Of a DNA stretch of 64,000 nucleotides, positions 20,711 through 22,546 are shown piece after piece. The DNA comes from Pseudothermotoga thermarum DSM 5069 (lineage in GTDB: Bacteria; Thermotogota; Thermotogae; Thermotogales; DSM-5069), in the NCBI RefSeq assembly GCF_000217815.1, contig NC_015707.1:62001-126000 (forward strand). Direction: 5' to 3'. Position 1 is the first letter of the stretch. Every line of letters starts with the position of its first letter. A program made the position numbers and the translations under genes. The notes beneath the pieces were generated by a model. It had not been told where the DNA came from and made no database searches. It was given only the letters and a program-made list of their open reading frames with translations.

Positions 20711-21364
20711 TCATTTGTGAATTTGATCCAGAACCTCTGAGAAGCTGTAGAAACCTCTTGACGCGTTGACTGCGAACTTGGCTGCTTTCAACGCCCCAAG
20801 TGCAAATGTTCTTCGCGAAATTGCCCTGTGGTGGATTTCAACAACTTCCCCAGAGTTTGCAAGTATAACGGTGTGATCTCCCGGTATTCCCCCAGCCCTT
20901 ATTGAAAGCGTTGGAACATCTTTGCCTATAATATTTTTGAGTGCCAATGCAGTTCCAGAAGGAGCATCTTTCTTTTGGTTGTGGTGAGCTTCTAAAATCC
21001 ATATGTCCCAACCTTCAAGTTGATCCTTTATGAAAGCAAGTATCCTTTTGACCAAATCTATCCCAATGGAAAAGTTTGCTGAGTACACAACTGGGACTAT
21101 TTCACCAAGCATTTTCAATTCCTGAAGTTGTTGTTGGCTTAGACCTGTTGTGCCAACAACCACTGCACAGTTGAACTCTTTTGCGAGCGAAATCGTTGTC
21201 TGCAAAGCACTAGGAGAAGAAAAGTCCAAAATGACATCTGGTCTTGCTGTTATTTCCCTTTCGTTTACGTCTACTTTGACCACAAGTTCATGTCCATCTT
21301 CCAAGAAAACTTGTTGCAATTCTTTACCCATTTTACCCTTGTATCCAACTAGACCATACCTCAT
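20711..21364 (-). CDS. dapB: 4-hydroxy-tetrahydrodipicolinate reductase
   Basis: A 217-residue enzyme of the diaminopimelate/lysine pathway. The nucleotide motif GYKGKMGKE is at the N terminus. DFSSPSALQTTISLA and VVGTTGL are typical, and the catalytic segment EAHHNQKKDAPSGTALAL holds the His and Lys residues. It uses NAD(P)H to reduce the product of DapA. It is shorter than the E. coli enzyme (about 270), as in other Thermotogales. Its ATG overlaps the dapA stop, so both form one transcript controlled by the leader at 22318-22546. Confidence 0.93.
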   Translation of the reverse strand: MRYGLVGYKGKMGKELQQVFLEDGHELVVKVDVNEREITARPDVILDFSSPSALQTTISLAKEFNCAVVVGTTGLSQQQLQELKMLGEIVPVVYSANFSIGIDLVKRILAFIKDQLEGWDIWILEAHHNQKKDAPSGTALALKNIIGKDVPTLSIRAGGIPGDHTVILANSGEVVEIHHRAISRRTFALGALKAAKFAVNASRGFYSFSEVLDQIHK

Positions 21365-22254
21365 ACCAATACCTCACTTCTCATTTTTTCGACGCATTTT
21401 CTGATTTTTTCCATGGTTGCTTCACTTGCCGGAACTAATGGCAGGCGAAGCTCGTTTTCAATCTTTCCCATGACATAGAGCATAGCTTTGACAGGTATTG
21501 GATTTGTTTCGATGAACAGCAGTTTTACAACATCCAAAAGTTGATAATGCAACCTTTGAGCTCTTTTGAGATCTCCTTTCAAGGCTGCTTCTACCATTTC
21601 CACTGTTTCTCTGGGTAAAACGTTGGAAACAACTGATATCACACCGTGAGCGCCGGCTGCCATCATGTGCAAAGTTCGATCGTCGTTTCCCGACCAAACC
21701 ATCAGGTTCAGTCCATTTCTTCTTGAAAGCTTGATTATTTCATCCGCTTGGTTTACATCTGGATTAGCTTCTTTAATGCCGACGATGTTGGGAAAATCCC
21801 TGGCAAGTCTTACGACGGTTTCAGGCAAAATGTTAACACCAGTTCGAGTCGGAACGTTGTAAATTATTATTGGGATGGAAAGTCTTTCTGCAAGGAACTT
21901 GTAATGTTGGTAAAGTCCTTCTTGGGTCGGGCGGTTGTAGTATGGAGTTACCACCAAAACGCCGTCCGCCCCATCTTTTTGTGCAAGAAGTGAAAGATGC
22001 AAAGCTTTTCTTGTGTCATTTGAACCTGTTCCAACTATAACTTTTGCTTTACCTTCGCAAAGCTGTTTTGTCAACCTTGTTAGTTGACTTCTTTCTTCTT
22101 CCGTCAAAGTGGAACCTTCACCGGTGGTCCCAGCCACAACTATGGCTTTAACTCCACTTTCAAGCTGCCATTTGACCAAAGCTTCGTACGCTTGATAATC
22201 CACCTCCCCGTTTTTAAATGGCGTCACGATTGCAGTACAGACACCCTCAAACAT
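21361..22254 (-). CDS. dapA: 4-hydroxy-tetrahydrodipicolinate synthase
   Basis: A 297-residue TIM-barrel lyase condensing pyruvate with aspartate semialdehyde, the branch point to lysine and diaminopimelate. GTTGEGSTLTEEE is the substrate-binding segment (about 43-55), YNVPTRTG holds the catalytic Tyr (about 133), and VGIKEANPD holds the Schiff-base Lys (about 161). RBS TAGGAGGTGG precedes the ATG. It is first in the dapA-dapB unit, behind a leader peptide and attenuator. Confidence 0.95.
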   Translation of the reverse strand: MFEGVCTAIVTPFKNGEVDYQAYEALVKWQLESGVKAIVVAGTTGEGSTLTEEERSQLTRLTKQLCEGKAKVIVGTGSNDTRKALHLSLLAQKDGADGVLVVTPYYNRPTQEGLYQHYKFLAERLSIPIIIYNVPTRTGVNILPETVVRLARDFPNIVGIKEANPDVNQADEIIKLSRRNGLNLMVWSGNDDRTLHMMAAGAHGVISVVSNVLPRETVEMVEAALKGDLKRAQRLHYQLLDVVKLLFIETNPIPVKAMLYVMGKIENELRLPLVPASEATMEKIRKCVEKMRSEVLV

Positions 22255-22317: not shown

Positions 22318-22420
22318 AAAAAAAGCGGGCTAGTTTTTTACTAGCCCGCTTCTGTCGAACGTGTGGTTGCGTTTATGCAAAAAAGCGCAACCACCACTCG
22401 ACAGGCGGGCGGTTGCGCTT
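22318..22420 (-). promoter_or_regulatory. Transcription attenuator of the dapAB operon
   Basis: Three competing hairpins are read from the minus strand. Hairpin 1:2: GCGCAACCGCC (22418-22408) with GGTGGTTGCGC (22395-22385), 11 pairs. Antiterminator 2:3: region 22410-22386 with 22371-22344, built of blocks of 9, 7 and 6 perfect pairs (GTGGTTGCG/CGCAACCAC, CTGTCGA/TCGACAG, GCCCGC/GCGGGC). Terminator: AGCGGGCTAGT (22350-22340) with ACTAGCCCGCT (22334-22324), then a T-run to 22318. The last antiterminator block sequesters the 5' arm of the terminator, and hairpin 1:2 blocks the antiterminator, the classical ribosome-attenuation logic. Confidence 0.85.
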
Positions 22421-22486
22421 CTTAATAATTATTATTGTGTTCAATTTGGTTGCAGAAACACCTTTATCAAGGTACTTTTCAAACAT
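22373..22486 (-). CDS. Attenuator leader peptide of dapAB, 37 residues
   Basis: A short frame from the ATG at 22486, behind AGAGGTGGA, to a TAA in the loop between segments 2 and 3. The peptide begins MFEKYLDKGVSATKLNT. It then has four Ile codons, two adjacent Lys codons (AAG AAG, 22423-22418), and ends RNRPPVEWWLRFFA. A ribosome paused at the Lys pair would cover segment 1 and free segment 2 for the antiterminator; one reaching the stop would cover segment 2 and allow termination. Lysine as the sensed amino acid is inferred from this geometry and from the regulated genes. The Trp-Trp and Phe-Phe pairs lie too far downstream to favour readthrough. Confidence 0.75.
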   Translation of the reverse strand: MFEKYLDKGVSATKLNTIIIIKKRNRPPVEWWLRFFA

Positions 22487-22517
22487 AACTCCACCTCTAA
22501 TAGCAACTTTTTACCAT

Positions 22518-22546
22518 ATTTTATACGTGAATATAATCTCTGTCAA
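22518..22546 (-). promoter_or_regulatory. Promoter of the dapAB leader
   Basis: On the minus strand, TTGACA (22546-22541), 17 bases, then TAAAAT (22523-22518). Transcription should start near 22511, about 25 bases before the leader-peptide ATG. Confidence 0.75.

Follow-up and report, generated by a model that had tools for sequence, protein, structure and literature searches.

The dapA-dapB operon of Pseudothermotoga thermarum is very probably controlled by a ribosome-mediated transcription attenuator tuned to lysine. The control region lies on the minus strand of the window (the whole 64,000-nt stretch of DNA that was analysed), is bounded by a divergently oriented gene and by dapA, and contains a structured leader of ~100 nt. 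The same architecture precedes lysine operons (dapA, asd, dapD) in about 20 related genomes. On balance, we also favour a wider reading in which the element belongs to a modular attenuator family of the Thermotogota, whose sensor codons and stem partners are exchanged together (Lys, Thr and probably His), which moved with the lysine operon between lineages and displaced the L-box, and which would be the first case of leader-peptide control of lysine synthesis.

Organization of the dapA-dapB leader

The features of the region, in the order of transcription, are the following.

22518-22546, minus strand: promoter, TTGACA (22546-22541), a 17-nt spacer and TAAAAT (22523-22518), near-consensus for sigma-70 with 11 of 12 consensus bases
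22491-22497, minus strand: Shine-Dalgarno-like GAGGTGG of the leader ORF, identified by inspection
22373-22486, minus strand: leader ORF of 37 codons starting with ATG, MFEKYLDKGVSATKLNTIIIIKKRNRPPVEWWLRFFA, stop codon TAA at 22375-22373; frame and Lys register kept in relatives
22418-22423, minus strand: sensor codons AAG AAG (Lys-Lys); Lys register kept in relatives, Thr codons in the hom-thr paralogue
22383-22420, minus strand: hairpin 1:2 (22420-22411 with 22392-22383); compensatory changes in 6-7 of 11 pairs
22384-22379, minus strand: T6 directly after hairpin 1:2
22344-22410, minus strand: antiterminator 2:3 (22410-22386 with 22371-22344), 25 pairs; -41.9 kcal/mol, z = -7.2
22318-22350, minus strand: intrinsic terminator of 11 pairs (22350-22340 with 22334-22324), A5 loop, T7 (22324-22318); supported by pairing and conservation
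21361-22254, minus strand: dapA, 4-hydroxy-tetrahydrodipicolinate synthase (TIGR00674, 353 bits, cut-off 206)
20711-21364, minus strand: dapB, 4-hydroxy-tetrahydrodipicolinate reductase, overlapping dapA (TIGR00036, 168 bits, cut-off 122)

The leader combines a short ORF, whose translation is predicted, with a ribosome binding site and clustered codons for the end product, and the hexamer GCGGGC (22349-22344) is common to the antiterminator and the terminator. Most of these parts had been recognized in the first-pass annotation of this DNA: the strong promoter, the 37-codon ORF with a good ribosome binding site, the tandem Lys codons, the stop codon and the 11-pair terminator with its T-run were all found as listed above, and the position upstream of dapAB agrees with the scores of both genes, each above the cut-off of its curated model. 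Segments 2 and 3 do capture GCGGGC of the terminator, in a helix longer than had been described. Segment 1 exists as well, but it spans 22420-22411 instead of the proposed 22418-22408; overall the proposed limits were accurate to two or three bases. The T6 next to hairpin 1:2, which may act as a pause or a weak terminator, had been overlooked.

We also observed that the start of the leader ORF (GAGGTGGAGTTATGTTTGA, 22497-22479, minus strand) is a near-repeat of the start of dapA (GAGGTGGATTTATGTTTGA, 22265-22247, minus strand).

Conservation of the sensor codons

We built a covariance model (R1) from 11 elements and ran it over the order (45 genomes) and the phylum (103 genomes). In family f1 it missed only the incomplete G001 among the members searched; it also matched nearly all members of genera g6 and g14, the only genera of family f3 in which it did so, and, in family f6, G047, where the element lies before asd. 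The leaders before asd or dapA read ...KKAKRSCPL, ...KSKAKRSCPL or ...IIKKTKHNCPL, each with the same three hairpins. Leaders with Lys-Lys also precede dapD across f1, including cases in which the search gave no close DapA relative. When R1 was run on 80 dapA neighbourhoods, nearly all of them from other phyla, nothing strong appeared except one Thermotogota record. Weak hits in genera g8, g10 and g11 and at G000:1666201 were discarded as ordinary terminators without a leader.

These elements vary in sequence upstream of segment 1, where only the frame and the Lys codons are kept. With the codon register anchored on the RNA alone, the codons not being looked at, the reading frame was identical in 22 of 23 leaders. 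Codon -3 is Lys in 21-22 of the 22 leaders that precede lysine genes (21 with the RNA-anchored register). Among 12 representatives, Lys occupies 29 of the 48 codons at positions -6 to -3 compared with 7 of 120 elsewhere in the leader (Fisher p about 1e-13, to be taken as a guide only, since the 12 leader sequences are related). AAA and AAG interchange at the sensor codons, as would be expected if the amino acid counts and not the base.

The genome of P. thermarum carries three copies of the element, located before dapAB (Lys-Lys), dapD (Lys-Lys) and hom-thrC-thrB (four Thr), the genes of the paralogue operons being identified with curated models. A DNA search of 61 related genomes matched the hom copy to the dapAB copy with 79% identity over 104 nt (E 9e-18) and gave weaker matches before lysine operons elsewhere. 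In the hom-thrC-thrB leader (...NSGTTTTSNCPP...) four Thr codons stand in place of Lys; its last sensor codon lies within stem 1:2, where ACA replaces AAG and the opposite strand is altered to match. The paralogues show a route to a new attenuator specificity, in which codons and paired bases change together. The lysine-tuned attenuator put forward in the first-pass annotation is supported by this copy, in which the identity of the codons tracks the product of the operon.

Examination of asd and lysC in the same genome for another copy revealed no such terminator. Both genes are separated from the dap genes, in an operon that also contains metH- and metF-like genes (L219, G000:C1:524000-538000). 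With asd and lysC elsewhere, the attenuators sit on branch-specific genes: those with Lys on dapAB and dapD, the one with Thr on hom-thrC-thrB.

Two Lys codons are a short run, which speaks against a lysine attenuator, and in the window leader they directly follow four Ile codons (ATA ATA ATT ATT) and are followed by CGC; in the leaders generally, Arg or His often comes directly after the Lys codons. A translated leader that senses the general progress of the ribosome, for example through Ile or Arg codons or slow translation at high temperature, and not lysine, would fit these features, but we consider it improbable: the residue after the last Lys varies (R, C or H), Ile is missing there in the asd and dapD leaders, and Lys is the sole constant residue before lysine genes, with Thr taking its place before threonine genes. 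The likelihood is lower still for a metabolite-binding lysine riboswitch, L-box-like or new, with which the ORF would overlap incidentally. The RNA is indeed strongly structured and the L-box controls the same operon in sister genomes; however, neither the L-box nor any other Rfam family reaches its threshold here, the region upstream of segment 1 is variable in all but its frame and Lys codons, and specificity switches to Thr by a codon change.

Conservation of the alternative stems

The mutually exclusive 1:2, 2:3 and terminator pairings that had been proposed are present, and they are kept in relatives with compensatory changes. Across the stems 95-99% of the cells are paired and 9-12 pairs are changed on both sides, while 0 of 500 shuffles were as good and slid partners paired in 25-44% of cells. 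In the 11-sequence alignment, 99% of cells pair and 9 of 24 pairs are changed on both sides (30-44% of cells pair when slid). The 27-sequence alignment, which leans towards structure because it was fitted to the model and includes one reverse-strand match as a row, has 12 pairs and 67 cells changed on both sides, and one of its pairs is GC in 14 sequences and CG in 13. Furthermore, in one group of elements segment 2 carries GCCCGC, the shared arm GCGGGC and the 3' arm of the terminator GCCCGC, and in a second group the same three sites read GCCCGG, CCGGGC and GCCCGG; since the three sites changed together, both exclusive helices are kept. Two tandem structures of a hairpin and a T-run (22420-22379 and 22350-22318) would also suit a constitutive terminator pair or an insulating, unregulated transcript end, but this is the least probable explanation of all, because plain termination would need neither the long, conserved competing helix nor the fixed Lys register, and the three-way covariation preserves both alternatives.

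The first-pass annotation had suggested looking in relatives for the leader frame, the Lys codons and the alternative stems, and would have abandoned the attenuator had the frame or the pairings lacked conservation; both are conserved. From these sequence comparisons, the parts of the element and their conservation are established, as are the register of the codons and the compensations in the stems.

Folding of the leader and position of the ribosome

In the mechanism that we infer, with its stalled ribosome, its reliance on lysyl-tRNA and its direction of response, RNA polymerase and the ribosome would travel together through the leader. A shortage of charged lysyl-tRNA would stall the ribosome with the Lys codons in the A site, where it would cover segment 1 and leave segment 2 free; segment 2 would pair with the nascent segment 3, GCGGGC would be removed from the terminator, and transcription would proceed into dapA. 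With ample lysine, the ribosome would pass the Lys codons, the antiterminator would be broken or come too late, and the terminator would form and stop transcription before dapA.

The predicted folding energy of the 113-nt region is -52.5 kcal/mol compared with -27.3 in shuffles (z = -8). The z-score listed above for the antiterminator region alone was obtained against dinucleotide shuffles, and this region is more stable than shuffles in 29 of 29 elements, with z from -3.6 to -9.8. A gap of 7 nt separates the last sensor codon from segment 2 in most elements; with this spacing, a ribosome whose A site holds the last or the preceding sensor codon would sit over segment 1, with its edge near the start of segment 2. 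When the RNA ahead of the ribosome was folded alone, in the lysine elements of f1, f3 and f6, the probability of the antiterminator held with the A site at or before the last Lys codon and dropped 1-2 codons past it. This profile along the ribosome positions supports antitermination on lysine limitation and, together with the spacing, places the regulatory codons where a stalled ribosome would cover segment 1 and free segment 2.

The events in lysine plenty are less simple. The first-pass annotation had a ribosome at the stop codon mask segment 2 and so allow termination, a plausible account that is partly supported. Translation would end beyond segment 2, at a stop codon that is 39-54 nt downstream of the last sensor codon in the f1, f3 and f6 elements. 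Masking is effective in the model if the RNA ahead of the ribosome folds alone; if RNA on either side of a ribosome at the stop codon may pair, the beginning of segment 2 stays free and the antiterminator is predicted to re-form. From these folding predictions, lysine-replete termination probably needs hairpin 1:2 or steric exclusion by the ribosome, and not simple masking of segment 2. Moreover, the ribosome-free equilibrium favours the antiterminator (-41.9 vs -28.5 kcal/mol for 1:2), so that termination as the default would need kinetic folding or polymerase pausing. In the equilibrium fold of the full-length leader the terminator coexists with the upper 2:3 stem, hence antitermination would have to win by timing. 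That compensatory changes conserve the 1:2 pairing argues that this hairpin has a role: it may pause the polymerase or keep segment 2 paired once the ribosome leaves.

Relation to known regulators

The amino acid attenuators (trp, his, thr, leu, phe and ilv; Thr_leader, His_leader, Leu_leader and Trp_leader in Rfam) share with the present element a leader peptide with regulatory codons, three segments with exclusive pairings and an intrinsic terminator before the first biosynthetic gene. They differ from it in that this one senses lysine, occurs in the Thermotogota and has its stop codon after segment 2; the Rfam Thr_leader model (RF00506) gave the window element 17.5 bits, below its gathering score of 55. 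The L-box (RF00168) also ends in an intrinsic terminator and serves the same lysine operon in sister genomes, but it senses through an aptamer and the present element through codons. No L-box match above the gathering score was found in the window, in the rest of the genome or in any genome with a lysine attenuator. A T-box riboswitch, recognized by its stem I, T-box sequence and antiterminator bulge, would likewise sense tRNA charging and control amino acid genes, but a conserved leader reading frame sets the present element apart, and Rfam scans of the element gave no T-box match.

A precedent in circumstances is the His leader before hisS/hisZ in Bacilli (PMC2965389), which also appeared in an unexpected phylum and replaces another RNA sensor, though its residue, phylum and target genes are other than those of the lysine element. 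Until that leader was found, leader peptides were thought, as of 2010, to be limited to Proteobacteria and Actinobacteria (PMC2965389). Surveys assign lysine synthesis in the Thermotogota to the L-box, used by all the Thermotogae species covered in one (PMC5584792) and present in most Thermotogales in another (PMC3766115); the latter survey also gives attenuator motifs for His, Leu, Thr and Trp and mentions Ile/Val and Phe. We found the attenuator instead of the L-box in part of the phylum. A study of Actinobacteria reported no attenuator for lysine (PMC1262725). The first-pass annotation had called a leader-peptide attenuator for lysine unusual; Rfam 15 contains none, and no description was found in the open-access literature, which misses most subscription papers. 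The class of mechanism is classical; the lysine member is what appears to be new.

Distribution in the Thermotogota

The L-box and the lysine attenuator occur in 57 and about 20 of the 103 genomes of the phylum, respectively, with an overlap of 0. The L-box genomes belong to family f2 (presumably Thermotogaceae), to genera g8, g10 and g11 of f3, to f9 and f11 and, in one case, to f4; genus g6, on the attenuator side, we take to be Fervidobacterium. Neither sensor was found at the operon head examined in the f8 genomes, so the two are exclusive yet do not cover the whole phylum. Two unrelated RNA sensors thus split one phylum without ever occurring in the same genome, which offers a direct way to ask when and why codon sensing took over from a riboswitch. 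In the part of the phylum that has the attenuator, a sequence family with exchanged sensor codons (Lys before dapA, asd and dapD; Thr before hom-thrC-thrB) would replace the L-box.

In the DapA tree, f1, g6 and g14 form one group (support 100/99), apart from g10 and g11, which belong to the same family as g6 and g14, and G004, a member of f1, is nested in the g6 group. These placements suggest a joint transfer of operon and attenuator between lineages. Our findings further suggest a wide occurrence of leader-peptide attenuation in a deep thermophilic phylum, where we found no earlier report of it.

Other leaders of this general kind were observed. Family f5 (G058, G061, G063; L055, L056, L058) has another Lys leader before dapF, e.g. 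NFCDFLKNKKYVKCPPGGAVL, with the peptide stretches KNKKYVK and ENKKYVK and similar hairpins, including an antiterminator and a terminator. R1 does not detect these leaders, which may be distant relatives or of independent, convergent origin. The same RNA family as the lysine elements lies before a polar amino acid ABC transporter at L117, L119, L120 (1501-1620) and L222 (G003:C7:57269-57388), with leaders that read IKHHAKYSP, IKHHTRYGP and MIKHYNRGSP; the residue sensed there is likely His. Finally, attenuator-like hairpins with aromatic codons in the leader precede related ABC transporter substrate-binding genes at G006:C1:622377-622498 (minus strand; L221, ...FAYAYWWFRG...) and at G099:C5:129309-129418 (minus strand; L122, ...INIFSFFRGG...), and these are possibly attenuators for aromatic amino acids.
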